This document shows, piece after piece, positions 48,152 to 61,950 of a DNA stretch of 64,000 nucleotides. The number at the start of each line of letters is the position of its first letter. Within the stretch, counting starts at the first letter, position 1. The stretch is from assembly GCA_024919195.1 (NCBI GenBank), contig CP103436.1:558001-622000 (forward strand), given 5' to 3'. The stretch comes from Methylophilaceae bacterium LSUCC0717. Lineage in GTDB: Bacteria > Pseudomonadota > Gammaproteobacteria > Burkholderiales > Methylophilaceae. The position numbers and the translations under genes are program-made. The notes below the pieces were generated by a model. It did not search any database. It was not told the DNA's origin and saw nothing but the letters and a program-made list of their open reading frames with translations.

Positions 48152-49021
48152 ATGCCGATGAAAAGGGAAGAGGTTGTAGGCTTAAGCTGCTTACTTTACG
48201 GGACAGTATTTTGGGGCCTGGTTTGGTATCCTTATAGGCTGCTTGAGCTGAATCAAATTTACCCAATATCTGCTAGCTCCCTGACCTTTATGGTTGCCAG
48301 CATACTCGCATTGGTATTTATATTTCCAAAAAGACATGACGATATTCTTTTGAATCTGAAATCTTTGGTAATTTTTGCTTTGGTAGGATGTGTCACGAAT
48401 ATTTCATATGTGATTGCTGTTGTTAATGGAAATGTTGTCAGGTCGATGTTGCTTTTCTTTATGTCACCTCTGTGGACGATATTTTTAAGTTACTTTTTAA
48501 TACCCAACGATACATTTCAAAAAAAAGATGCATACATTGCCTTGCTGTCGATTGTTGGTGGATTTATTATTTTGTTCGATCCTAATTCATTTTTAATGAA
48601 TGTTGGGTTCAGTGATTTTTTTGCATTATTAGCTGGAATTTTCTTTGCTTGCACTAATGTGCTGGCAAGAAAATTTAGCAAGATTCATTATCAATCAAAA
48701 TCTTTTGCGATTTGGGTAGGGGTGGCAGTTGGTGGAGCATTATTAATATTAATAACTAATGATTTAAATGTTATTAATTTGATAAATCCAAAAAGTCTAA
48801 TGTTGTTACTCATCATCGGGTTACTTCTTTTTTGTTCGACGCTGATTATCCAATACGGATTACCTAAAATTAATCCTGTTAAAGCAAGCCCTATTTTTAC
48901 TTTTGAGATTGTTGTGGCTGCTTTGTCATCTTACTGGCTGGCGAACGAAATATTGGGCGTTAAAGACCTGGTTGGTGGCGTATTTATTATCCTTGCAATT
49001 TCTCTTTCTGCTTTGAAATAA
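48152..49021 (+). CDS. EamA/DMT-family transporter
   Basis: A 289-residue inner membrane protein with about ten predicted helices arranged as two EamA repeats. Substrate cannot be predicted; the family includes exporters of amino acids and metabolites. GTVFWGLVWYPYRLLE at the N-terminus and TLIIQYGLPKINPVKASPIFTFEIVVAALSSYWLANE near the C-terminus are typical. An ATG at 48158 is an alternative start. Its 3' end overlaps the convergent TPR-glycosyltransferase gene by 35 bases. Confidence 0.88.
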   Translation: MPMKREEVVGLSCLLYGTVFWGLVWYPYRLLELNQIYPISASSLTFMVASILALVFIFPKRHDDILLNLKSLVIFALVGCVTNISYVIAVVNGNVVRSMLLFFMSPLWTIFLSYFLIPNDTFQKKDAYIALLSIVGGFIILFDPNSFLMNVGFSDFFALLAGIFFACTNVLARKFSKIHYQSKSFAIWVGVAVGGALLILITNDLNVINLINPKSLMLLLIIGLLLFCSTLIIQYGLPKINPVKASPIFTFEIVVAALSSYWLANEILGVKDLVGGVFIILAISLSALK

Positions 49022-50861
49022 GCTTTAAATAAATTTCTTCGATATTTTTTATATATTCGTCAGGCTGAAATAAGACATGCTTTTTGTTATTGATTTTTTC
49101 ATTTAAATCTTCTAAATACTCTTGGTTTTTATAGAAGAAAATAGCTTGTTTTTGGTAATCTTGGAGATTATCAAATACCAGCTCTTCAGAACAATCAATG
49201 GCATGTAAAAGGCTTGCCCCAACTCTCGATTGCATTACTTCACCAATGTGTGTGATGGTAGGCTTATTTTGGTAAATTGCATCAGCTATGGTGGTATGTG
49301 CATTGTATGGATAACAGTCTAAAAATAGGTCTGCATGCTCAATTCTGCCTATGTGTTCATCAATAGGAGCATACTCTGCAATAATTATTCTGTTGTCATC
49401 CAGACCATTTTTCCTTGCATATTCTTTAATATTTCTTTTTGAAATATCGTTTTGCAGGAGTATCCATAGGGATGACTTTGGGCATTCTTGGAGTATATTT
49501 ATCCAGACATCAAAGATATCTTTTGTTATTTTTAAATTTTGATTAAAGCTGGCAAAGATAAAATGATTATCTGGGAGGCGGTATGTATCTCTTTGTGTGG
49601 TTATTGAAGGCCTTTTAAAATTATTGGGTTGGTAGGTCGGTTTTAAATTAATGATTTGTTCAGAAAAGAACTTTGCTTTACTTTTATCAATAACAATTTC
49701 ATCCGCAAATATGAAATCACCCAATGGTTTGTCATTGAAACTTCCGAATGTTCCAGGATAGCCGAGCCAGTTAACTTGAATTGGAGCGGGGTGATATTTT
49801 AGAATATTTGTCCTACTATTTTTTGTAAACCCTGATAAATCGACCAGAATATCAATCTCTAAATCAATAATTTTTTGAACAAGCTCATGATCAGACATGT
49901 TAAAGGTGTTAATAAAGTTTGTTGATAATTTTTTAAAAGACAAATGCTCTTTTGATTCTTCCTCAACACCATTAAATAGAAAAATCACCTCAAATTTTTC
50001 TTCATCGTGAAATGACAGGGCATCATGCACCAAATAAAATAAGGGATGATTCCTTAGATCTGAGGACATGTAGGCAATTTTAGCTTTTCCGTCATTTATT
50101 TTAGTGGAGTAGGCATGTATTGCAGGTTCAAATGGTAATTTTTTATTCCACTGACAGGCGATGTTTAAGTATTGTTCATTAGAGATCCCTGGTAGGGTAA
50201 GCATAGGGAAGGGTGGAAAAGAAAAATTCACATCCTTTAGTCGATTATGAATATCTTTCATTAGGGTATCAAACTCATTCCAGTCATTAATCTTTTGATT
50301 CAGATGAAGTAATTGCACTAAGGCATTGTCATTTTTTTTAAGCTGATATGATTTCTCATAGCATTTTTTTGCCTCGTTTAAGTTTTCAAGTTTTAGATAA
50401 GCATTCGCTAAATTGTTATACAGGTCTTCATCGTCTCTACCACCTTTGCTTAGTGCAGTTAAATAATGACTGACAGAGAGTTTAATTTCATTGTTGGCTT
50501 GCAAAACATTAGCGTAATTATAAAAATGCTGCCAATTATTACTCTCATGGTTTATTAGTTCTTCAAAATATAGCTTCGATTGTTGATAATTTCTTTTTAG
50601 AAATGCATCATTTCCAAGCTCATTCAGACAAAACGAAATTGATTCAGCGAGATGGTCATTGTCACGAAAGACATGATAGACCCTTCGAAAGTAGCCCAGA
50701 GCCTCTTCAAAATCTCCAGCCATAGCATAATAGTTACCAATTTCAGTTTGGATTGAAAGGTCCCGGGGCGCTTTCTTGAGTTCTTTTTTTAATAACTGAA
50801 TAGCTTCATCGAATTTATTTTGTGATTCTAGGTCAGCAAGCGTTTTGTTGAGATCATGCAT
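48987..50861 (-). CDS. TPR repeat protein with O-GlcNAc transferase-like (GT41/SPINDLY) domain
   Basis: About 624 residues. The N-terminal third is TPR repeats (for example GNYYAMAGDFEEALGYFRRVY, NLANAYLKLENLNEAKKCYEKSY); the C-terminal part resembles GT41 glycosyltransferases: IAYMSSDLRNHPLFYLVHD, DILVDLSGFTKNSR, APIQVNWLGYPGTFGS, FIFADEIVID, FASFNQNLKITKDIFDVW, and DLFLDCYPYNAHTTIADAI. It probably transfers a sugar to protein or another acceptor; donor and target unknown. ATG 50861 is chosen over TTG 50873. Last of the long minus-strand run; overlaps the MnmC-like gene by 8 bases. Confidence 0.85.
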   Translation of the reverse strand: MHDLNKTLADLESQNKFDEAIQLLKKELKKAPRDLSIQTEIGNYYAMAGDFEEALGYFRRVYHVFRDNDHLAESISFCLNELGNDAFLKRNYQQSKLYFEELINHESNNWQHFYNYANVLQANNEIKLSVSHYLTALSKGGRDDEDLYNNLANAYLKLENLNEAKKCYEKSYQLKKNDNALVQLLHLNQKINDWNEFDTLMKDIHNRLKDVNFSFPPFPMLTLPGISNEQYLNIACQWNKKLPFEPAIHAYSTKINDGKAKIAYMSSDLRNHPLFYLVHDALSFHDEEKFEVIFLFNGVEEESKEHLSFKKLSTNFINTFNMSDHELVQKIIDLEIDILVDLSGFTKNSRTNILKYHPAPIQVNWLGYPGTFGSFNDKPLGDFIFADEIVIDKSKAKFFSEQIINLKPTYQPNNFKRPSITTQRDTYRLPDNHFIFASFNQNLKITKDIFDVWINILQECPKSSLWILLQNDISKRNIKEYARKNGLDDNRIIIAEYAPIDEHIGRIEHADLFLDCYPYNAHTTIADAIYQNKPTITHIGEVMQSRVGASLLHAIDCSEELVFDNLQDYQKQAIFFYKNQEYLEDLNEKINNKKHVLFQPDEYIKNIEEIYLKLISKQKEKLQG

Positions 50862-51969
50862 AGTTAAAGCCAATTATATTTTTTTTATTATGTCCTTTGA
50901 TTAGGTTTTGATATGGGTTTAAATAATTTAAAAATTTAGCATCAAGCTCACCAAGGTTCCCAGTCAGCATTTTTACTATAATCCTTGAAGCAAGAGGAGC
51001 TAGGGTGAAACCTTTGGAGCCATAAAAGCTATTTATTAAGATATTATCTCGCCAAATAAATTCCATTCCATTATGACTTTGCTTTACTTCTTTTAGCACT
51101 TTACCCACGTATGGAATTCTCTGTTTTGTTGTAAAACGGTTTCCAGTCCATATTTGTTTTTTTGCATTTTGAATCTTTGATATATCATCGAACCAGTCTA
51201 TCTTTTTTTCAAGTGACTTTTCTTCCTCATTCTGGTCTATATCCTTAATATCTTTATTTTTATGGTAACTTGACCCGCATGCAAAAGCCTTATCATCAAA
51301 AATTATATATCCGTCTTGTGATAGATTAACCTTTTCTGATGATTGATAATCTCCTTGAAGGATTGATCCAGAGTAGTGCTCACATATAATTTTTTGACCT
51401 AATAAATTATTTATACTTTGAGGGTTACATAAGATAACAACGTCATGATCGGCAATGATTTTTCCATTACCATCGATCAGCCGATGTCCTTTTGATTTTG
51501 ATTGGATTTGTTTTATTTCAATTTGGGATTTGTTTATTTCTAAGCTAAGAAGTCTTTCAGTATTAACCCAGCCAGCTGTCTTCTGAAAGATCGCATTTTG
51601 CTCATGATTATGGCGGACGACACTGATTTCTTCAGAAAGGAATGGGTTGTTTTGAACCGTTTTTTTCACCCTTTCATTCAAGTCTTCATTGTGTATAAAA
51701 CGATAGAGTCCAGGAAAGGCGATGGAGGTTCTGTCTAAGTATTTGGTATAAAATTCCTTGGCATACCCGATCGCATGAAAATGCAGTAAGTTGTGATTAT
51801 ATGAGGCAATGCCATATTTTGGATTAAGTGAAGCGTAGGGAGGTGAATTCTGTGGGTATTGTTTATCATCACTATATAATGCAACGTCAAATCCAGATTC
51901 TTTAAGTGCAACGGCCGAACAAATTCCTGCAATACCGCCACCAATTATTCCAACACTCAAATCAGCCAT
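50854..51969 (-). CDS. FAD-dependent oxidoreductase, MnmC C-terminal-domain-like
   Basis: A 371-residue DAO-type flavoprotein. The FAD-binding fold begins VGIIGGGIAGICSAVALKESGFDVALY. PPYASLNPKYGIASYNHNLLHFHAIGYAKEFY and GSKGFTLAPLASRIIVKMLTG resemble the oxidoreductase half of the bifunctional tRNA enzyme MnmC, which turns cmnm5s2U34 into nm5s2U34. The methyltransferase half is missing; it may act alone, as single-domain forms exist, or have another substrate. It overlaps the kinase-like gene by 13 bases. Confidence 0.7.
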   Translation of the reverse strand: MADLSVGIIGGGIAGICSAVALKESGFDVALYSDDKQYPQNSPPYASLNPKYGIASYNHNLLHFHAIGYAKEFYTKYLDRTSIAFPGLYRFIHNEDLNERVKKTVQNNPFLSEEISVVRHNHEQNAIFQKTAGWVNTERLLSLEINKSQIEIKQIQSKSKGHRLIDGNGKIIADHDVVILCNPQSINNLLGQKIICEHYSGSILQGDYQSSEKVNLSQDGYIIFDDKAFACGSSYHKNKDIKDIDQNEEEKSLEKKIDWFDDISKIQNAKKQIWTGNRFTTKQRIPYVGKVLKEVKQSHNGMEFIWRDNILINSFYGSKGFTLAPLASRIIVKMLTGNLGELDAKFLNYLNPYQNLIKGHNKKNIIGFNYA

Positions 51970-52670
51970 AACAAAACCACCAACAATATTGTGGCGCCAA
52001 GAGTTTTTTTAAAATATTTATATTTAATTTTGCTAAATATTGTCAAATAAAGCTGAAATCGAATCCTCTCAAAGGAGTTAAATTTGCTTGAAACCATATA
52101 TTCATTAATAAGATTTTTATAATTTATCAAGCCGAAATGTTTAATGTCATCTTTGTACTTAATCATTCTTCTAAATGCACGCGCTCTGGTAAAGATGAAC
52201 AATGGCCATGGGTAGAAGTGAATCTTAGCGATATCTATAAGAAATAATTTTTTATTATGAAGTAGAATGTTACCTAGATGCATCGCTCTAAAATAGATGC
52301 CTTTTTTATGGATGATTGAAATATATTTAGCCAAGTCGGTTATCATTTCTTTTGTAATTTTGTTACCTAAATCACGGTATGTTTTGCCTGGAATGTATTT
52401 GTATGAAACACCGGACAATCTATTGTTGTATTGAAAAGCTAATTCGTTGGTAATTTCAATTGATGAGATTTCATGTTCCTTTAATTTAATGGAATTTTTA
52501 ATGATGCGACTGGCGTATGTATTGAAAAAACCACTGGATATATAACCCCTTACGTTAAAAATTTTAATTATTTCGTTTTTTTTATGAAAGGTCTTTCGGT
52601 GACCCAAATCATCGGCTTTCTCAACAAATTTATTAAATTCCGTATCATTTTTAAAGAAGATCTTTTTCAT
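51957..52670 (-). CDS. InaA / lipopolysaccharide-kinase-like protein
   Basis: A 237-residue protein with a kinase-like fold of the InaA/WaaP (or 'toluene tolerance') type. The catalytic-loop region is HKKGIYFRAMHLGNILL (HLGN at residues 131-134), followed by LIDIAKIHF with Asp146 as metal ligand. The usual HxD catalytic Asp is not seen at the expected place; FRxxHLGN looks like a family variation. KYIPGKTYRD resembles the hinge region. A hydrophobic C-terminus (ATILLVVLLWLI) suggests membrane attachment. It overlaps cfa by 20 bases. It might phosphorylate a lipid or LPS sugar; unproven. Confidence 0.65.
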   Translation of the reverse strand: MKKIFFKNDTEFNKFVEKADDLGHRKTFHKKNEIIKIFNVRGYISSGFFNTYASRIIKNSIKLKEHEISSIEITNELAFQYNNRLSGVSYKYIPGKTYRDLGNKITKEMITDLAKYISIIHKKGIYFRAMHLGNILLHNKKLFLIDIAKIHFYPWPLFIFTRARAFRRMIKYKDDIKHFGLINYKNLINEYMVSSKFNSFERIRFQLYLTIFSKIKYKYFKKTLGATILLVVLLWLI

Positions 52671-53856
52671 TTTGAGGTAGGCGGTTTAATGGTTTTGATA
52701 AAAGAATATGGAAATCATTGATGGCTCTTTCATGGAAGCCACCAGCGCAATAAGAAAAATAATAGTTCCACATCTTCATGAATCTCTCGTCAAACCCAAG
52801 GCTCATAATCTTTTTACTATTCTTGTTAAAAGATTTTTGCCAGAGCGTGAGCGTTTTCGCATAATGCACATTAATGTTTTCTAGATCAGAAATGATCAGG
52901 TCAGTATGTCTTGTAATAGTTGACTGGATAATATCAATTGATGGAATGCATGACCCTGGAAAGATATATTTTTGGATGAAATCTACAGTCTTGATGGCTT
53001 GATTGTATCTTTGATCACGAATGGTAATTGCTTGAATTAATCCCATACCAGTCGGCTTTAGAAGTGAGCTTACCTGTTTAAAATATTCGGGGTAATAATG
53101 ATGGCCAACAGCTTCTATCATCTCGATGGATACCAATTTGTCAAACTGACCACTCAGGTGTCTATAGTCTTTAAAGAGTAAGTTAATTTTTTTTGTTAAC
53201 CCTTTTTTCTTAATTAACTCTTTGGCGAAATTATATTGCTGCCTTGATATGGTTGTTGTAGTTACTTTACAACCATATTTTTCAGCTGCATATGTCGCAA
53301 AACCACCCCAGCCAGTTCCTATCTCGATGATATGATCGGTTTTTTTGAGTTGAAGTTTTTTGCAGATAATATCCAGTTTGTTTAAGGATGCGTGGTGCAA
53401 TGATTGGGATTTATTTTTAAAAATGGCTGATGAGTACATCATTGTTTCATCTAAAAATAATTTGAAGAAATCATTACTTAAATCATAATGTGCTGAAATA
53501 TTTCTCTCACTATTTTTTATAGAATTTTTATTAAGATAATGAATGAGTTTGAAGAGCGGCTTGATAAAGAAGTTAAATTTTGTTTCTAATTTTTCTGTTA
53601 ATTGTTGATTTACAGCAAAGACACGAATGACATTAGTTAAATTTGGGCTACTCCAGTATCCATTCATGTAAGCCTCACTCGCACCAATGGAGCCACCAAA
53701 AATTATGTACTTATAAAAGGCTTGGTCTTTTACAACGATTTCTGCCTTTAGAGGCTCTTTTTTTGATCCAAATACATGTTTTTTATCGCCATCATAAATC
53801 ACTAAATCTGCATTCTTCAAGATTTTGAGGTTTGAAAAAAGGAGTTTTTTTAACAT
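52651..53856 (-). CDS. Cyclopropane-fatty-acyl-phospholipid synthase family methyltransferase
   Basis: SAM-dependent methyltransferase acting on double bonds of membrane phospholipid acyl chains. 401 residues. SAM motif HIIEIGTGWGGFA (residues 175-187), DETMMYSSAIF, SIEMIEAVGHHYYPEYFKQVSSLLKPTG, KYIFPGSCIPS and the C-terminal WNYYFSYCAGGF match Cfa. The product could be a cyclopropane or a methyl-branched acyl chain as in UfaM-type enzymes; sequence does not settle this. Neighbours DUF1365, COG2907 flavoprotein and desaturase support a fatty-acid modification cluster. Confidence 0.9.
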   Translation of the reverse strand: MLKKLLFSNLKILKNADLVIYDGDKKHVFGSKKEPLKAEIVVKDQAFYKYIIFGGSIGASEAYMNGYWSSPNLTNVIRVFAVNQQLTEKLETKFNFFIKPLFKLIHYLNKNSIKNSERNISAHYDLSNDFFKLFLDETMMYSSAIFKNKSQSLHHASLNKLDIICKKLQLKKTDHIIEIGTGWGGFATYAAEKYGCKVTTTTISRQQYNFAKELIKKKGLTKKINLLFKDYRHLSGQFDKLVSIEMIEAVGHHYYPEYFKQVSSLLKPTGMGLIQAITIRDQRYNQAIKTVDFIQKYIFPGSCIPSIDIIQSTITRHTDLIISDLENINVHYAKTLTLWQKSFNKNSKKIMSLGFDERFMKMWNYYFSYCAGGFHERAINDFHILLSKPLNRLPQNEKDLL

Positions 53857-53858
53857 AT

Positions 53859-54587
53859 TTATTTTAACGGGTGTGAATAGAATGGAGTTTTCTTAAACCA
53901 TAGTTTTAATGCATTCCAATATATCTTAAAAACAGTCTCAAGAGGAGATAGTGGATATTTAAATATATATGAAGTTAAGCTAAGTGCTGAAATCGATCTT
54001 CTCTTTAATTTAAGGGTAGCATTAAATACTTTTTCACTATTAAGATTGTTGTTCATGCTTATAACGATAACATCATTTGGTTTTGTAAATTGCCAGTTAT
54101 ATTTTATATGCATGGGCATGAAAGGGGATATATGAAACTCTTTATCAAAGTTAAATTTGTGGGTTATATCTTCTTGGTTGCATGGATGAACATAGGCGAA
54201 TCTTTCATTCCAGGGCGTGTTATTAATGTCAGATATTATGGCCCTTAGGATAGAGCCCTGGTAACAATAATAAAAGCTGACAGGGTTGTAGCACACCCCG
54301 AAAACACGAGGGGTTGTCAGTATAAAAATTTTGTTTACCCCCTTAATTTTTTTAGTGGTCAAAAAGTCAATTAAATCCTTTTTTAAGTGCCTTGATTTAC
54401 GAAAATAATCTTTTTGTCTAAAGCAGACAATATTTGGACGATCAAAACTCCAGAGGAAAGAACGCCGAAAAGTTGAGTTGACCTGATCCAGATCAAGCAT
54501 CAGCATCGAATACCTGTATGAGAATTTATTTTTTGTGGGTGCAATTCGGTCGTGAGTGACCACACCACTGTAAATTCCCTGGTTCAA
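53859..54587 (-). CDS. DUF1365 family protein
   Basis: A 242-residue protein of the DUF1365 family, function unknown but repeatedly found with Cfa and COG2907 flavoproteins. Typical segments: GIYSGVVTHDRIAPTKNKFSYRYSMLMLDLDQ, FNPVSFYYCY-like YNPVSFYYCY, ISDINNTPWNERFAYVH, FHISPFMPMHIKYNW. The start is TTG at 54587, overlapping the flavoprotein stop (TTGA); downstream ATG codons would cut into the conserved N-terminus. Two bases separate its stop from the cfa start. Confidence 0.9.
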   Translation of the reverse strand: MNQGIYSGVVTHDRIAPTKNKFSYRYSMLMLDLDQVNSTFRRSFLWSFDRPNIVCFRQKDYFRKSRHLKKDLIDFLTTKKIKGVNKIFILTTPRVFGVCYNPVSFYYCYQGSILRAIISDINNTPWNERFAYVHPCNQEDITHKFNFDKEFHISPFMPMHIKYNWQFTKPNDVIVISMNNNLNSEKVFNATLKLKRRSISALSLTSYIFKYPLSPLETVFKIYWNALKLWFKKTPFYSHPLK

Positions 54588-55831
54588 TTATTTACCCCGC
54601 TAAATTTTATGGCATTCAATGCGCTGACAACTCCATCCTCATGGAAACCATTTCCCCAGTAGGCTCCTGCAAAGGCAAATTGGCCATCACATAATAACTT
54701 CTGCTTCTTTTGAGCCTCAAAGGTGTTTAGGTTAAATGTGGGGTGCTCATATGTTATTTTTTTTAAAATCTTTTTGTTGTTTATTTTTTTATCAAAATTT
54801 AAGCTAACCAGTAAATCTGATTTTGTTTTGATATTTTGCAAAATATTCATATTATATGACACCGTGACATCACTAATAAGTTTCTTATCAACATGATAAT
54901 TCCATGCTGCCCATGCTCTTTTGCTTTTGGGCATGAGTGATGAGTCTCGGTGTAATACGGCACTATTTTTTGCATAGTCAAATTGCCCAAGTATCTTTTT
55001 TTGTATGGGTGTTGGCTTTTTAATTAATTTAAGCGCTTGGTCGGCATGACAGGCAAAAAAAACGTGGTCGAATGAATAATTGCTCTGTTTTGTTTGTACA
55101 ACACATTTTTTCCCATTCTGATAAATAGATTGGATATTTGCGTTTAGGATAATTGAACCGTTCAGTTTTTTAATTATTTGATCCACGTACGTCTTAGACC
55201 CGTTTTTTATGGTGAGCCATTGGGGGCGGTCGTTGATATTAATCATGCCATGATTATTTAAAAATCTTAAAAAAAATAGTAATGAAAATTTTTTAACATC
55301 TTTAAAGCTGGAAGACCAAATGGCTGAGGTCATCGGCAATAAGTAGTTGGTCATAAAATAATTTGAAAAGTTATAAGAGCATAAAAACTCTTCGATAGTG
55401 ATATTTTTGATTTGAGCGGCAGGCGTTTTGAGTAACTTTTTTCCTAATCGATTAAATTTCAATATTTCCCATATCATTACCCAGAATCTAACATTAAAAA
55501 TATTTTTTCTTTGACTGAATAGAGTATTAAAGCTGTTTCCATTATATTCAAGACCATTTAATTTAGATTGAACACTAAAGCTCATTGATGATTTTTGAAA
55601 AGGGACATCAAGCTCGTTGATTAATTTTAAAAAGTTTGGATATGTTTTTTTGTTAAAAACAATAAAACCAGAATCAACGTTAATTTTTTTATTGTCTAGG
55701 GTTAGTGAATGGGTATGAGTGTGTCCACCAACACGGTTGTCTTTTTCGAAGACTGTGATTTGATGTTTTTTTCCAAGATAGTGGGCCAGAGTGAGGCCTG
55801 AGATACCGGAACCAACTACTGCTATTTTCAT
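54584..55831 (-). CDS. NAD/FAD-dependent amine-oxidase-like flavoprotein (COG2907)
   Basis: A 415-residue flavoprotein. VVGSGISGLTLAHYLGKKHQITVFEKDNRVGGHTHTHSL is the dinucleotide-binding opening, followed by VDSGFIVFNKKTYPNF; the C-terminal FAFAGAYWGNGFHEDGVVSALNA closes the FAD site. Relatives near Cfa genes have been connected to unsaturation or furan formation in fatty acids (for example UfaD in Rhodobacter, from memory). It starts on the desaturase stop codon (TAATG). Confidence 0.88.
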   Translation of the reverse strand: MKIAVVGSGISGLTLAHYLGKKHQITVFEKDNRVGGHTHTHSLTLDNKKINVDSGFIVFNKKTYPNFLKLINELDVPFQKSSMSFSVQSKLNGLEYNGNSFNTLFSQRKNIFNVRFWVMIWEILKFNRLGKKLLKTPAAQIKNITIEEFLCSYNFSNYFMTNYLLPMTSAIWSSSFKDVKKFSLLFFLRFLNNHGMININDRPQWLTIKNGSKTYVDQIIKKLNGSIILNANIQSIYQNGKKCVVQTKQSNYSFDHVFFACHADQALKLIKKPTPIQKKILGQFDYAKNSAVLHRDSSLMPKSKRAWAAWNYHVDKKLISDVTVSYNMNILQNIKTKSDLLVSLNFDKKINNKKILKKITYEHPTFNLNTFEAQKKQKLLCDGQFAFAGAYWGNGFHEDGVVSALNAIKFSGVNN

Positions 55832-56742
55832 TAGTTATGTTTTTGTCTTATGGCCTTACTAACCGTTCTTAAATTATAAACAATCCCAAAGAAGGACAGA
55901 AATCTAAGTGCATAGTAAGTTAAGTCAACTTCCCACCAGTAGAATCCCTGTTTAATAGAGCCTGGGTAGTGATGGTGATTATTGTGCCAACCCTCTCCGA
56001 AAGTGAGCAGGGCAACAAAAAAATTATTTTTACTTTCTTCTTTTGTGTTGTATCGCTGTGTTCCCCATAGGTGAGCAATGGAATTTACGGCAAATGTGCA
56101 ATGATAAACAAGAATTGTTGATACACAGAAACCCCAGATAACCATATTCAAACCGCTGATGCCTGAAATTAACAATGAGTACTCACCAATTACAAATAAG
56201 GATAAAAGTAATAGGACGGGAGGTAACCAATCAAAGCGATCGATTAATACTAATTCTTTAAACTTAATTAGGTCGCGAACAACCTTACGATCAGTTAGAA
56301 AGTTTTTCTTTGCGAGGAACCAGCCCATATGGCTCCATAAGAAGTGATGTGTGTGGGGTGAGTGGTGGTCATTATGCCTATCTGAATTTAGATGATGTCG
56401 TCGGTGATGCGATGCCCACCAAATCGGACCTCGTTGTGCTGCTGTTGATCCAATGAAGGCGAAGATGAATTGCATCAATCTAGATGTTTTGAAGGTTTTA
56501 TGCGCAAAGTAACGATGATAAAAGCCTGTAATGGCAAACATGCGAATCACAAATAAAAAAAATGCTACCCAGACTAAGTACCATTCAAAATGGGTCCAAA
56601 ATGCCGCCAAAGCGCCAAAGTGGATTAGGATGAAGGGGATAACCCTGAACCAATCGATTGTGTCTCCATCAACACCTTTTTGTTTTTGATAGTATTTCTC
56701 AGCGTAATTATTATCGAAAATTTTTAATAAAAAATGCTTCAT
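55831..56742 (-). CDS. Membrane fatty acid desaturase, delta-9 (acyl-CoA/acyl-lipid) type
   Basis: Oxygen-dependent di-iron desaturase that introduces a cis double bond into saturated acyl chains. 303 residues, four or more membrane helices. The three histidine boxes are HRYFAH (residues 76-81), HHRRHH (112-117) and HNNHHH (253-258). It overlaps the lipocalin gene (ATGA) and the flavoprotein gene. Its product could be the substrate for the Cfa-type enzyme two genes later, giving a logical enzyme order on one mRNA. Confidence 0.94.
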   Translation of the reverse strand: MKHFLLKIFDNNYAEKYYQKQKGVDGDTIDWFRVIPFILIHFGALAAFWTHFEWYLVWVAFFLFVIRMFAITGFYHRYFAHKTFKTSRLMQFIFAFIGSTAAQRGPIWWASHHRRHHLNSDRHNDHHSPHTHHFLWSHMGWFLAKKNFLTDRKVVRDLIKFKELVLIDRFDWLPPVLLLLSLFVIGEYSLLISGISGLNMVIWGFCVSTILVYHCTFAVNSIAHLWGTQRYNTKEESKNNFFVALLTFGEGWHNNHHHYPGSIKQGFYWWEVDLTYYALRFLSFFGIVYNLRTVSKAIRQKHN

Positions 56743-57260
56743 TGGTTATGAGGGACAAAACGTAACATATCCTTATCATAACCCAGTTCAGAAGTTTTTT
56801 TATAAATCCATTGTTTTTTTTCGGTAGGTAAATCAGTTGTTCTTGACATAAACCACAGGTAGTCTCTCTTATCTCTAGCGACAATTGTGTTCTCATAACC
56901 TTCATCAATATAGGCAATCACATATTGTGCCTTTATGGGCCAAATAAATTGCATACCCCAAACAGCATTATTTGTTCCAGGAATAACAAACCCTTTTGGT
57001 TTGTAGATTTTTTCTGGGCCATCTAAGGCACCTTTGTTAAAGGTGAAAGTTGTTTCAATTACCTGGTCCGCATTATTAAAAGAGTAGCTTTCCACCGCAT
57101 TAAACGCATTTTTTTCAATCAGCGCCGGGATGTGGGCCAACACATACCAATCTCCCATAAAATTATCCAATGAAATCTTCTCCACGGGCTCAATTTTAGG
57201 GAGACCGTTTGTTGCACAGCCAGAAATTAGTGTAAATATTATAAGGACTATCTTTTTCAT
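56739..57260 (-). CDS. blc: Outer membrane lipoprotein of the lipocalin family (Blc-like)
   Basis: A 173-residue lipocalin that may bind fatty acids or lysophospholipids in the envelope. Lipoprotein leader MKKIVLIIFTLISGC (lipobox LISGC). Lipocalin motifs: FMGDWYVLAHIPALIEK (Gly-x-Trp), YSFNNADQVIETTFTFNKG, AQYVIAYIDEGYENTIVARDKRDYLWFMSR. It sits between a POT transporter and a desaturase, overlapping both by four bases, which fits acyl-chain trafficking or repair. Confidence 0.92.
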   Translation of the reverse strand: MKKIVLIIFTLISGCATNGLPKIEPVEKISLDNFMGDWYVLAHIPALIEKNAFNAVESYSFNNADQVIETTFTFNKGALDGPEKIYKPKGFVIPGTNNAVWGMQFIWPIKAQYVIAYIDEGYENTIVARDKRDYLWFMSRTTDLPTEKKQWIYKKTSELGYDKDMLRFVPHNQ

Positions 57261-58588
57261 AATAACTTTCGTAAATAAGGTCTGGACATAATCAGAGCAA
57301 TTGCTCCTAACATGGTTAGGATACTTATGAACTTAAATAAGTTCAGATCTAAGTTTTGAACAACTGACGGAAGGAGTCCTGCGAGATAGCTAGCAATGGC
57401 AAAGGTCAGAAACCATAAACCAATCATTAAGGATTGAATTTTTTTTGGCGCCACTTTGGTTACCATCGATAAGCTTGTTGGGGAGAGACACAATTCACCC
57501 AGTGTGTGAAAAAAATAAATAAGGACAACCCAAGTAAAGTGAATGTTTTCCATATCTTGGATGAGTGTCAAAATTATAAATCCCAAACTCATCAATAACA
57601 GTCCGAGACCCATCTTCTCTGGCGTTTCAGTTCTAAATCTTGAATCTATACGAAACCAAATTTTAGCAACAACCGTACCTAAACAAATAATGATCAGTGG
57701 ATTAATGGCAAGAAAGAATGTGGTTGGTATGGTGAAATTAAAAAAACTTTTATCTACCTTTGAATCTGTAAAGAGTGTCAGTGACCCACCAGCCTGCTCG
57801 AAACCGACCCAAAAAATGACCGAAAACAGACCAAGGATAAAAATATAGTATATTTTTTTTAAATCTTTTCTATTAAACGAAAAGGATGATCGCTTAATAA
57901 AGAATAATATAACCGTGAGAATAATTAAAAGAACAAACCATAATGGCGAATAAATGATAAAACAAATTAAAGCCACATTTATGAATAAAAAGATTTTAAT
58001 TTTTGAATAATTAATTTGTGTTTTTAAAATCTCAATTTGGTTAATTTTTAAGCAAAATACAACTAAGCCAAGAAGCATTCCAAAAGCAGCCATTAAAAAG
58101 CCTAAATGCCAGTTGTAAAATTCACCTATAAAACCAATTATTAGTGGTGCTAAGAAAGCTCCGATATTAATCCCGATATAAAAGTAACTAAATCCTTCAT
58201 CTCTTAATTTTTCTGGTTTTGATTCGTATAGGTTACCTAGCATGCTTGAAATGTTCGGTTTAAAGAAACCATTCCCAGCAACTAAGAAGCCCAAACCAAT
58301 GAAGAATAAGGACTCAAATGCGAGCAGGGCATGTCCGATCATCATCAAGATCCCACCAATCAAAATAGCATTAACATTATTAATGTATTTATCGGCAAGA
58401 TAACCACCCAAAAGTGGTGTTAAATAGACTAATCCGGTATAGATGCCATAAATATACAGGGCTTCGGTATCCGGATAAGCCATCGCATTGACTAAATAAA
58501 GAACCAGCAGGGCTCGCATCCCATAAAAACTGAACCTCTCCCACATTTCAGTGAAAAAAAGTGTGCGAAGTAATTTTGGGTGCTTCAT
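57257..58588 (-). CDS. Proton-dependent oligopeptide transporter (POT/PTR2 family)
   Basis: Proton symporter for di- and tripeptides. 443 residues, about 12-14 membrane helices. The TM1 proton/peptide motif is FFTEMWERFSFYGMRALLVLYL (ExxERF), and FSYFYIGINIGAFLAPLI is the PTR2 signature. HTLGELCLSPTSLSMVTKVAPKK contains the conserved TM10 glutamate. It begins four bases after the ATG-started glnD region ends and overlaps the lipocalin gene by four bases. Confidence 0.93.
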   Translation of the reverse strand: MKHPKLLRTLFFTEMWERFSFYGMRALLVLYLVNAMAYPDTEALYIYGIYTGLVYLTPLLGGYLADKYINNVNAILIGGILMMIGHALLAFESLFFIGLGFLVAGNGFFKPNISSMLGNLYESKPEKLRDEGFSYFYIGINIGAFLAPLIIGFIGEFYNWHLGFLMAAFGMLLGLVVFCLKINQIEILKTQINYSKIKIFLFINVALICFIIYSPLWFVLLIILTVILFFIKRSSFSFNRKDLKKIYYIFILGLFSVIFWVGFEQAGGSLTLFTDSKVDKSFFNFTIPTTFFLAINPLIIICLGTVVAKIWFRIDSRFRTETPEKMGLGLLLMSLGFIILTLIQDMENIHFTWVVLIYFFHTLGELCLSPTSLSMVTKVAPKKIQSLMIGLWFLTFAIASYLAGLLPSVVQNLDLNLFKFISILTMLGAIALIMSRPYLRKLL

Positions 58589-58592
58589 GAGG

Positions 58593-61151
58593 TTATTTAA
58601 GGAGGTTTAAGAGATCATTCTCAAGGTTTTTTGGCTCAAACTGTGAGTCGTTGCTGATTTTGAAATCAAAATGATCCTCAACACGCTCGCCCATGGTCGT
58701 AATTTTGGCATTAGACAGGCTAATGTTGTATTTTTTTAGTAGAGAGGCAACGGATAATAATAACGCTTTACGATTGGCCGTTTTGATCTGCAAGTGAAAT
58801 AGCCCATCGTCATTTATTAGCTCAATAAAATCCTCAATTTGATGGAAGCTGGCCTGCCTTGATTTTTTCATTAGGTTGTTAGAATTATTAAAGCTATTCT
58901 TGCTAACATCCTGATCAATTACATTCGTGAGATTTTCTTCAATATACTTAAAAAAGTCCTTGAACCTTAATGAACTTTCATCTTCATAGGTTACATTAAA
59001 GATATTTAGCGCATAGCTATGGTTTGTTGTAAAAATTTTAGCTTGACTGATTTCGCATGATATTTCATTGAAAAAATGGCAAGTTTTGTAAAAAATATCA
59101 TTTTTATCTTTTGTGTAAATCAGCACCTCAATACCTTGCCCACCTTTTTGATGCCTTACTCTGGTAATTGTTTTTTGTGTGTTCGCGTGTGAGAGAAGAA
59201 GCCGTGTGTGCCATGATATTTCTGGTGCTTCAAACTTAGTAAAGTATTCAGAACCCATTAGCGACCAGTTTTTTTGATACATGTGTGGTTCAATTGAATA
59301 TTTAATTAAATTATTTTTAATTTGCTTCACTCTTTGCTTAATAAATTGCTCATTAGTGAGTTTGTTTTGAAGGTATTTTGTTGTTGTCTGATGAAGGCCG
59401 TTAATTAGAACTGATTTCCATTGATTCCATACCTTGTGGCTTGTGCCTCGAATATCTGCAGTAGTTAACAGATATAGCAAATCAAGACGATCCTGATTTT
59501 GAACTTCATTTGCAAAGGAGCGAATCACCGAAGGATCTGCAAGGTCAAGCTTCTGGGCAACATTTGACATTAATAGGTGATTTTTAACTAACCACGAAAT
59601 TGTTTGAATATCAGGTGTACTCAGGTTAAACATTCGACCAAATCTCTTAACTTCTTTTTCGCCTAAGCTTGAATGATCACCGCCTCTTCCTTTAGCAATG
59701 TCATGGAAAAGAGCAGCTAGATATAAAATGGATGGGTCTTTAAGTCTTTTGAATGCCTCATGGGATTCGGGTGATTCATGTTTTAGTTTAGCCTTGCTGT
59801 ATCTTCTCAAGTTATCAATTACATTGAGTGTATGTTCGTCTACGGTGTAGATATGGAATAGGTCATGCTGCATTTGTGAAATTATCTTTCCAAAAACAGG
59901 TAAAAATTTTCCTAAAATGTTATATCGGTTGAGTAACCTTAATGATCGATTTACTTTTTGTTTTTCTTTAAAAATTTGCAAAAAATCTTCTTGAATATTT
60001 TTGTCTGACCTGTAAGTCTTATCAATAAGAAGGTTTGCGGTTGTTATAAAGCGGTCGATTAAATTGGGTCCAAAGCCCTGTATTGATGGGTTACGTTGAA
60101 AGATATGGAAGTATGCAAAGATTTTCTTCGAAATATCTTTTTTTGTATTTTTGTTTAATTCCAAGAGTCCATCAGATATGTAAAGCTCATTAAAACCTTC
60201 AACTTTTTCTTTGCTAGATTGAAACTCAACAGTAAATTTTTTTGTAATAATTTCATTGAAGAGTATTATATAACGTATTGATTTATATAAACTATTCATT
60301 ACAAATTCACTTGCTTTTTTATTTGATGAATTCTTAAAACCTAAATCTTTTGCAATTTTTGATTGATAGTCAAAGAGCATCCTATCTTCCTGGTGGTCGG
60401 TTGCAATATGAAGATAAATTCTTCTTTTGATTAACTTGTTGTAGTGAAAGTTTATTAGGTTGAGTTGTTTTTTGGTGATTACCTTGCTTTCTAACAAAGT
60501 TTTGAGGTTATGATCTCCATACTTTGCTGCACATAGCCATCGAATGAAATGGATGTCACGTAAACACCCTCTGGATTCCTTAATATTTGGCTCTAAGAGA
60601 TATCCGGACTTACTAAATTTCTGATGCCTTAATTCCTGCTCCCTAACTTTTGCTAGAATAAATTTTTTAACGTTTAATGTTTTTTTAAATTTTTCATTAT
60701 ACTTTTCATAAATAAGATGATTTCCACAGATGAGTCTGGATTCTAGTAGGTTGGTCGCAATAGTGATGTCTTTTATGTCTTTTGATATCTCATCAATTAC
60801 CCTCTGACTAACACCCAGTCTGAATCCAAAATCCCAACAAAGTTGAATAAAATTTTCTAACTTCTCATTATTGATATTGATTGAATCGATGCTATTGGTA
60901 ATGATTGTTATATCAATGTCTGATGATGGATAGAGTTCCTTTCTGCCATATCCACCAACTGCAACAAGACAAAAGGACTCATTTAAATCAGCTAGCACCC
61001 ACAATTTTTTTAAAACATCGTCACAGAGTTTAGTATTTTGCTTTAAGAAACCTGAGCTGTTATGTTTTTTTAAAAACTGAGACTTTATTTGTTCAAATCG
61101 AATGTCATATGATTTTTTAATGAACTTAAAATCATTTTTTTTTGATTCCAT
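58593..61151 (-). CDS. glnD: PII uridylyltransferase / uridylyl-removing enzyme
   Basis: Glutamine sensor that uridylylates or deuridylylates PII. About 852 residues. Domains: nucleotidyltransferase with GGYGRKELYPSSDIDITII (metal Asp78 and Asp80), a GlnD helical domain, HD hydrolase with LYLAALFHDIAKGRGGDHSSLG, and two C-terminal ACT domains (one around VLIYTKDKNDIFYKTCHFFNEI, one around LFHLQIKTANRKALLLSVASLLKKY). ATG 61151 (MESKKND) is preferred over TTG 61163. It follows map by four bases. GlnE at 6.3-8.8 kb is the downstream effector. Confidence 0.95.
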   Translation of the reverse strand: MESKKNDFKFIKKSYDIRFEQIKSQFLKKHNSSGFLKQNTKLCDDVLKKLWVLADLNESFCLVAVGGYGRKELYPSSDIDITIITNSIDSININNEKLENFIQLCWDFGFRLGVSQRVIDEISKDIKDITIATNLLESRLICGNHLIYEKYNEKFKKTLNVKKFILAKVREQELRHQKFSKSGYLLEPNIKESRGCLRDIHFIRWLCAAKYGDHNLKTLLESKVITKKQLNLINFHYNKLIKRRIYLHIATDHQEDRMLFDYQSKIAKDLGFKNSSNKKASEFVMNSLYKSIRYIILFNEIITKKFTVEFQSSKEKVEGFNELYISDGLLELNKNTKKDISKKIFAYFHIFQRNPSIQGFGPNLIDRFITTANLLIDKTYRSDKNIQEDFLQIFKEKQKVNRSLRLLNRYNILGKFLPVFGKIISQMQHDLFHIYTVDEHTLNVIDNLRRYSKAKLKHESPESHEAFKRLKDPSILYLAALFHDIAKGRGGDHSSLGEKEVKRFGRMFNLSTPDIQTISWLVKNHLLMSNVAQKLDLADPSVIRSFANEVQNQDRLDLLYLLTTADIRGTSHKVWNQWKSVLINGLHQTTTKYLQNKLTNEQFIKQRVKQIKNNLIKYSIEPHMYQKNWSLMGSEYFTKFEAPEISWHTRLLLSHANTQKTITRVRHQKGGQGIEVLIYTKDKNDIFYKTCHFFNEISCEISQAKIFTTNHSYALNIFNVTYEDESSLRFKDFFKYIEENLTNVIDQDVSKNSFNNSNNLMKKSRQASFHQIEDFIELINDDGLFHLQIKTANRKALLLSVASLLKKYNISLSNAKITTMGERVEDHFDFKISNDSQFEPKNLENDLLNLLK

Positions 61152-61155
61152 GCGA

Positions 61156-61950
61156 TTAATCAAGAAAGGGTGGGGGTGTATGTTCGGATACAGTTAACAC
61201 TTCATACCCGTCTTCAGTAACTAAAATGGTATGTTCCCATTGTGCTGACAATGATCGATCCTTAGTGACAACTGTCCAGCCGTCAGGCATTATACGAATA
61301 TCTTTTTTACCTGCATTTACCATAGGTTCAATGGTGAATGTCATACCTTCTTTTAATTCTAATCCTGTTCCTTTTTTTCCGTAGTGGAGGACTTGCGGTT
61401 CTTCATGGAAAACTTTTCCAATTCCATGCCCACAAAACTCTCGTACAATTGAAAATCCATGGCTTTCCGCAAACTGTTGTATTGAAAAGCCGATATCACC
61501 TAATCTTGCACCAGGCCTGACTTCACGAATACCTTTCCACATTGATTGGTATGTAATCTCACACAATCTTTTTGCCTGAATTGAGGGCTCACCAACATAA
61601 AACATTCGGCTGGTATCACCGTGATATCCTTCTTTAATGACAGTGATATCAATATTAACAACGTCACCCTTTTTCAGCACTCTGTCGCTAGGAATTCCAT
61701 GGCATATTTGATTATTAATCGATGTGCAAATTGATTTTGGATATGGAGCATGGCCTGGAGGTGCATAGTTTAGAGGGGCTGGCACTGTATCTTGAACGTT
61801 AACCATGTAATCATGACAAAGGCGATCAATTTCTTCCGTTGTAACACCAGGTTGTACATGTGGAGTTATAAAGTCTAAAACTTCAGCAGCCAATTTACCA
61901 GCGACTCGCATTTTGCGAATATCATCTTCATTTTTTACTGTAACCGACAT
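61156..61950 (-). CDS. map: Methionine aminopeptidase, type I
   Basis: Removes N-terminal methionine from nascent proteins. 264 residues. The five metal ligands are in VVNIDITVIKEGYHGDTSRMF (two Asp), the His in FCGHGIGKVFHEEPQVLHYG, and the two Glu in FTIEPMVN and WEHTILV. Heads the long minus-strand run and is divergent from rpsB, the classic map / rpsB-tsf arrangement. Confidence 0.97.
   Translation of the reverse strand: MSVTVKNEDDIRKMRVAGKLAAEVLDFITPHVQPGVTTEEIDRLCHDYMVNVQDTVPAPLNYAPPGHAPYPKSICTSINNQICHGIPSDRVLKKGDVVNIDITVIKEGYHGDTSRMFYVGEPSIQAKRLCEITYQSMWKGIREVRPGARLGDIGFSIQQFAESHGFSIVREFCGHGIGKVFHEEPQVLHYGKKGTGLELKEGMTFTIEPMVNAGKKDIRIMPDGWTVVTKDRSLSAQWEHTILVTEDGYEVLTVSEHTPPPFLD

Follow-up and report, generated by a model that had tools for sequence, protein, structure and literature searches.

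A probable furan fatty acid biosynthesis cluster, split in two, in a streamlined genome of the Methylophilaceae

Which fatty acid do the lipid-modification genes of Methylophilaceae bacterium LSUCC0717 make, and is their pathway complete? The genes lie in a stretch of 64,000 nucleotides of this genome (contig CP103436.1, positions 558,001 to 622,000; hereafter the window), where those for a flavoprotein (ufaD), a DUF1365 protein (ufaO) and a Cfa-family methylase (ufaM) are packed together with genes for an acyl desaturase (DES), a lipocalin (LCN) and a kinase-like protein (KIN). We consider it likely that this run forms one half of a cluster for the biosynthesis of furan fatty acids (FuFA) that has been split in two. 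These antioxidant membrane lipids, known as potent scavengers, occur in fish, in plants and in a small number of bacteria, and only a handful of bacterial strains have been shown to make them. The present analysis established orthology, gene synteny, residue conservation, purifying selection and the absence of ChrR; the reactions of UfaM, UfaD, UfaO and FufM are known from other organisms, and the products, the roles of DES and LCN, and expression are inferred.

A preliminary description of the region had listed six genes with overlapping ends, and all six were recovered as open reading frames (ORFs) between positions 51957 and 57260, on the minus strand, five of them with Pfam matches, with ends that overlap by 1–20 nt or lie 2 nt apart. 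Its extent needed widening: the close-packed run comprises 11 genes, from map to a TPR-repeat protein, with gaps of −20 to +4 nt, so that it passes the interval on both sides (Table 1), and some of the ancestral lipid cluster is found 70 kb off. The run is more than chance. Its order is kept in congeners, the ufaD-ufaO-ufaM core recurs across Pseudomonadota, and dN/dS is low for every gene (0.04–0.26, two close comparisons).

The reactions of the core enzymes have been established by Lemke et al. (2020, PMC7380195). UfaM converts cis-vaccenate to 11Me-12t-18:1 by methylation, UfaD (RSP1091, a phytoene-desaturase-like flavoprotein) yields 11Me-10t,12t-18:2, and UfaO (RSP1090, DUF1365) uses O2 to form the furan acid 9M5, which FufM (RPA0924) methylates once more to give 9D5 (PMC7380195). 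The first three enzymes have been reported as both necessary and sufficient for the mono-methyl furan fatty acid. The sequence of steps first proposed for the window, in which double-bond formation was followed by the flavoprotein, the DUF1365 protein and then the methylase, is thus revised: methylation comes first, the flavoprotein then introduces a double bond into the methylated chain, and the DUF1365 protein inserts O2.

For comparison, reference genomes were reached through the Rhodobacter sphaeroides ChrR sequence of a solved structure and then through neighbourhoods in named genomes, which gave Cereibacter johrii (ChrR 96% identical) and Luteovulum azotoformans (ChrR 89%). Searches for CMAS proteins found one strong match in each, and that of C. 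johrii adjoins a photolyase-like ORF (read by eye), as RSP2144 adjoins RSP2143. The window proteins are 39% (UfaM), 34% (UfaD) and 27% (UfaO) identical to the Cereibacter proteins. When UfaD of L. azotoformans was compared with the LSUCC0717 genome, the window gene was the sole strong match (34% identity, E 4e-78), and the genome encodes a single DUF1365 protein. Near-invariant positions are kept throughout, in 55 of 55 columns for UfaD, 19 of 19 for UfaO, and all such residues of UfaM and DES. The three genes occur together in most loci examined, and these comparisons argue strongly for assigning the window genes to the FuFA pathway.

The methylase decides between furan and cyclopropane products, both of which had been envisaged at first. 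In a maximum-likelihood tree of 63 proteins, 46 cluster UfaM sequences and both Cereibacter-group references fall together on the same side of a branch supported at 100/96, whereas four canonical Cfa proteins (Escherichia coli and three from Methylophilaceae) group at 100/99 and the FufM group is supported at 100/100. The Cfa-like protein of the window, for which a position outside the furan and cyclopropane clades had been conceivable, falls with the Cereibacter UfaM. It would be quite improbable, in our estimate, for this enzyme to be an ordinary cyclopropane synthase, with the remaining genes acting on other lipids. It does belong to the CMAS family, with an annotation-level match to cyclopropane synthases, and E. 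coli strains expressing Halomonas UfaM gave cyclopropane acids too (PMC12089945); but it lies outside the canonical Cfa clade, scores 299.6 bits against a cut-off of 400 for the Cfa equivalog, and ufaM nearly always stands beside ufaD and ufaO. The active site points the same way. The catalytic bicarbonate of E. coli Cfa has Glu239, His266 and Tyr317 as its ligands (PMC11387697). Glu239 and Tyr317 are retained in cluster UfaM, whereas His266 is replaced by Gln and His240 by Ala in 71 of 71 sequences (Q266 and A240 in the window), and Cys139 by Ser in 58 of the 71. Because the canonical Cfa of one congener (L105) also has Gln266, Ala240 is the cleaner mark of this sequence-defined signature; one of the five Cfa rows in the residue alignment (L102) is a spurious ORF. 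A canonical Cfa was not found in the host genome, and some congeners have one. Within the FuFA reading as a whole, the predicted product is therefore likely a furan acid, and only the furan part of the initial alternative is kept.

A second, FufM-like methylase is encoded elsewhere in the genome. The intact order, which most Methylophilaceae have, is fufM-DUF2878-DUF1295-DUF6134-lipocalin-desaturase-ufaD-ufaO-ufaM, with DUF6134 not in all. Seven genomes, that of LSUCC0717 and those of the congeners G015, G034, G046, G056, G086 and G114, have a split form. Upstream of its ufa half lie map, glnD and a POT-family transporter gene wherever the contig reaches (locus L090, from G086, ends early); downstream, except for the kinase-like gene that has been added, the flank is the one usual in the genus. 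Loss of fufM was considered and ruled out: the fufM-DUF2878-DUF1295-DUF6134 block lies at ~685.3–688.2 kb of the LSUCC0717 genome, some 70 kb distant from the ufa genes, as a separate unit with ~280 nt to its divergent upstream gene, and it is likewise separate in G046 and G015. All parts of the cluster are kept and only rearranged. In a distant relative (L130), DUF1295-fufM adjoins rpoE-chrR and ufaDOM. The FufM-like protein is 26% identical to the UfaM of its own genome and falls in the CNMT-like branch of the CMAS tree; its nearest solved relatives are coclaurine N-methyltransferase-type enzymes, a type to which AT4G33110 presumably belongs. FufM has been reported as 38% identical to AT4G33110 (PMC10940516), and an identity of 26% has been published for RPA0924 and R. 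sphaeroides UfaM (PMC7380195).

The desaturase and the lipocalin set the Methylophilaceae clusters apart. We compared 40 Methylophilaceae with 36 other Pseudomonadota cluster loci, and near ufaD a desaturase occurs in 35/40 versus 3/36, a lipocalin in 37/40 versus 3/36 and fufM in 30/40 versus 5/36, whereas an RSP1087-type SDR is found in 2/40 versus 22/36. DES combines the FA_desaturase profile with the three His boxes of the SCD/DesA type, and its closest solved structure is acyl-CoA desaturase 1 (PDB 4ymk, E 6e-34). The LCN N-terminus reads MKKIVLIIFTLISGC, with the lipobox ISGC. DES as the sole source of unsaturation was ruled out, since fabA and fabB are both present in the host genome over equivalog cut-offs; DES may instead supply extra monoene to UfaM. 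Loci L074, L075, L081 and L101, from the Methylophilaceae genera g10 and g11, carry a different cluster without a desaturase, and the placing of UfaM from L074, L081 and L101 in the other half of the tree suggests a separate acquisition.

Taken as a pathway on phospholipid acyl chains, FabA/FabB, aided by DES on saturated chains, would provide cis-monoenes. UfaM would methylate the cis double bond with S-adenosylmethionine (SAM), whereupon the double bond would migrate to a trans position; UfaD would give a methylated conjugated diene, UfaO would close the furan ring with O2, and a second methyl group would come from the FufM homologue, encoded at a distance of 70 kb. At the outer membrane, the lipoprotein lipocalin, of Blc type, probably binds acyl lipids or moves them. 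FabAB synthesis gives 16:1 (delta-9) and 18:1 (delta-11), both omega-7, and from these, on pathway knowledge and inference, we would predict 7M5 besides 9M5: the expected products are 9M5/9D5 from 18:1 and the shorter 7M5/7D5 from 16:1. Their likely role would be to shield the membrane against singlet oxygen and other light-driven oxidants.

The pathway could instead end early or yield another product, a methyl-branched or a conjugated acid for instance, if the substrate position, the chain length or the UfaO chemistry differed in Methylophilaceae. In the tree, the Methylophilaceae UfaM belong to a gamma-type half and the Cereibacter enzyme to the other, UfaO is only ~27% identical to its Cereibacter counterpart, and an additional desaturase is present; yet the near-invariant residues of UfaO and UfaD are all kept and the three genes travel together in most loci, and we regard this outcome as unlikely. 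Several points do weigh against a FuFA pathway as drawn here. At 27–39% identity to the Cereibacter enzymes, the preferred acyl position or chain length could differ. The putative orthology of FufM is argued from family and neighbourhood. A literature search on Methylophilaceae fatty acid composition gave nothing usable, and no lipid data for this organism were found. We also know of no tested role for DES or LCN in any known FuFA producer, and three genes suffice in R. sphaeroides.

A FuFA cluster in the window can be set beside several known systems. One is Rhodopseudomonas palustris, with RPA2571-2569 (ufaD-ufaO-ufaM) and RPA0924 (fufM) (PMC7380195), which has the three genes in the window order and a FufM-type methylase elsewhere in the genome; here DES and a Blc-type lipocalin are added and the fufM block contains DUF2878, DUF1295 and DUF6134; the comparison is one of gene layout. 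R. sphaeroides has orthologous UfaD, UfaO and UfaM (RSP1091-1087 and RSP2144, under RpoE-ChrR), but in this type, as checked in C. johrii and other Rhodobacteraceae-type genomes, ufaM stands elsewhere beside a photolyase and the ufaDO operon adjoins rpoE-chrR, an SDR and DUF3833, whereas the window locus has no ChrR and includes DES and LCN in the cluster. Among Gammaproteobacteria, Halomonas sp. YLGW01 (PMC12089945) and Pseudomonas syringae (PSPTO_1121-1116; PMC5507510) also have ufaD, ufaO and ufaM consecutively, in the same order in Halomonas as in the window; that of P. syringae is part of a regulon of the RpoE/ChrR type which also includes photolyase and SDR (PMC5507510), and a desaturase is not described with either cluster in these two papers. 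The nearest to the Methylophilaceae layout are the f17 gammaproteobacterial loci L147 and L152, where DES, ufaDOM, DUF1295 and fufM stand together, with LCN in L147, and which differ in that ECF/ChrR-like genes adjoin the cluster. The pathway is thus a known one in a new layout and host, and its product is specific and testable. As far as we know, an SCD-type desaturase and a Blc-type lipocalin are linked to the FuFA pathway here for the first time.

How the genes are controlled is a separate matter. RpoE-like genes near ufaD were counted in 0/40 Methylophilaceae and 18/36 other loci, and ChrR-like genes gave the same figures. The preliminary description had remarked on the absence of photolyase and ChrR. 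For ChrR this extends to the whole genome, which has no match, and to the family, in which 0 of 80 Methylophilaceae genomes exceeded the family cut-off; its absence is therefore not special to this locus, and loss at this locus only is ruled out. Photolyase-family proteins, on the other hand, are encoded at three other places in the host genome. Constitutive FuFA production from the map promoter, as the preliminary description had it, would agree with a split FuFA cluster, and the lack of any intergenic gap above 4 nt across the run, from map down to the TPR gene, together with the missing ChrR, favours it. Small gaps are nevertheless usual in a streamlined genome, the promoter scan stayed at shuffle level (51 sites against 57 expected by shuffling, the terminator scan likewise), and the fufM half is a unit of its own, and we hold such expression to be possible rather than probable. 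Internal promoters are possible on this result. The Rfam scan of the region gave no match at the gathering score, and the repeats there are AT-rich only, probably by chance.

The host genome measures 1,271,458 bases in one contig and encodes a ribulose monophosphate (RuMP) pathway hexulose phosphate synthase over cut-off as well as a rhodopsin. Genomes of Ca. Methylopumilus and OM43 span 1.26–1.36 Mb with 35.3–37.7% GC (PMC6794327), and the host would accordingly be a streamlined member of the Methylophilaceae of abundant sunlit plankton. The original view of the locus, that its genes modify fatty acids, are related to the ufa genes of Rhodobacter and belong to a methylotroph of sunlit water, agrees with the rhodopsin, the RuMP enzyme, the UfaM tree and the UfaD match. 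In genus g1, the window genome and close relatives have one rhodopsin and other members two; a similar split has been reported between OM43 and Ca. Methylopumilus (PMC6794327).

More tentatively still, and with considerable doubt, rhodopsin-bearing streamlined methylotrophs might make mono- and dimethyl FuFA continuously without ChrR, with the desaturase feeding C16 chains to 7M5/7D5, and so be a bacterial source for aquatic food webs. If this is true, 1.3-Mb genomes that keep the full route while discarding most else would indicate a lipid that is likely important in light, and abundant sunlit plankton could supply furan acids to food webs. At one locus outside the family (L122; G478, 1.21 Mb, GC 27%), ufaD, ufaO and ufaM share a single run with a photolyase-like and a cysteine-synthase-like gene; judged by size, GC and neighbours, this genome is probably SAR11-like and would be a second streamlined lineage with furan genes.

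UfaO has no solved relative by sequence. For the window protein (pLDDT 85) and for C. johrii UfaO (pLDDT 90), AlphaFold gave beta-rich models with C-terminal helices, read as barrels from their matches; one alignment underlies both models. The best Foldseek matches of both are nitrobindin and a fatty-acid-binding-like protein (E 0.0035–0.0078 for the best two each, probability 0.97–1.00; VIA Z 6–8), and as Z 6–8 is the usual background, these matches are close to background. A lipid-binding barrel would suit the UfaO reaction, and is a lead at most, also for its cofactor.

Table 1. The close-packed run of genes in the window (positions in the window).
Feature	Description	Position	Strand	Basis
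TPR-repeat protein	last gene of run	48987..50873	-	ORF, overlap, synteny
MnmC C-domain-like FAD protein	downstream neighbour	50854..51969	-	TIGR03197 128.8 bits, below cut-off; synteny
KIN	LPS-kinase-like (InaA/WaaP type), 237 aa	51957..52670	-	weak Kdo match
ufaM	Cfa-family SAM methylase, UfaM clade, 401 aa	52651..53856	-	Pfam CMAS 286.8 bits; tree
ufaO	DUF1365 protein, putative O2-dependent furan-forming step, 242 aa	53859..54587	-	DUF1365 241.8 bits, cut-off 25
ufaD	COG2907 FAD-dependent fatty-acyl desaturase (predicted), 415 aa	54584..55831	-	Pfam Amino_oxidase/NAD_binding_8
DES	membrane acyl desaturase, SCD1 type, three His boxes, 303 aa	55831..56742	-	FA_desaturase 63.7 bits
LCN	Blc-type lipocalin, lipoprotein signal, lipobox ISGC	56739..57260	-	Lipocalin_2 98.9 bits
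POT	POT-family peptide transporter	57257..58588	-	PTR2 193 bits; subfamily model over cut-off
glnD		58593..61163	-	TIGR01693 655 bits, cut-off 519 (NCBIfam equivalog)
map	first gene of run	61156..61950	-	TIGR00500 334.5 bits, cut-off 171 (NCBIfam equivalog)

The remaining genes of the run appear to be neighbours. The kinase-like protein and the POT transporter had been counted as possible pathway parts, a role that we no longer assign to them: this subclade is the only one in which they adjoin the cluster, and relatives of the kinase occur in neighbourhoods resembling those for lipopolysaccharide (LPS). The POT arrangement is the same in congeners (L062-L065 and L095), and POT and glnD are probably subclade neighbours of the pathway genes. 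KIN has no Pfam match over cut-off (Kdo/WaaP 14.2 bits against 21.3), and its close relatives occupy this place in seven genomes of the genus only. Relatives in other Methylophilaceae (~29–33% identical, those examined) lie in other loci, where several adjoin aldolase-like, HAD-phosphatase-like, heptosyltransferase-like or other glycan-type genes (read by eye), and KIN is probably a late addition in the subclade. Its loop FRAMHLGN has no Asp at the expected place, a position that is inferred, and the same holds for every homologue aligned; among homologues L276-L280 the loop F(R/H)xxHxGN is conserved, also without the catalytic Asp expected at that position. Judged from these sequences, the family may consist of pseudokinases or unusual kinases. 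At the upstream end, map is separated from the divergent rpsB by 126 nt. Downstream, the MnmC-like flank is common to cluster loci of several relatives, and the adjoining TPR protein, whose C-terminal half resembles an O-GlcNAc-transferase-type enzyme, stands next to the MnmC-like gene in many relatives.

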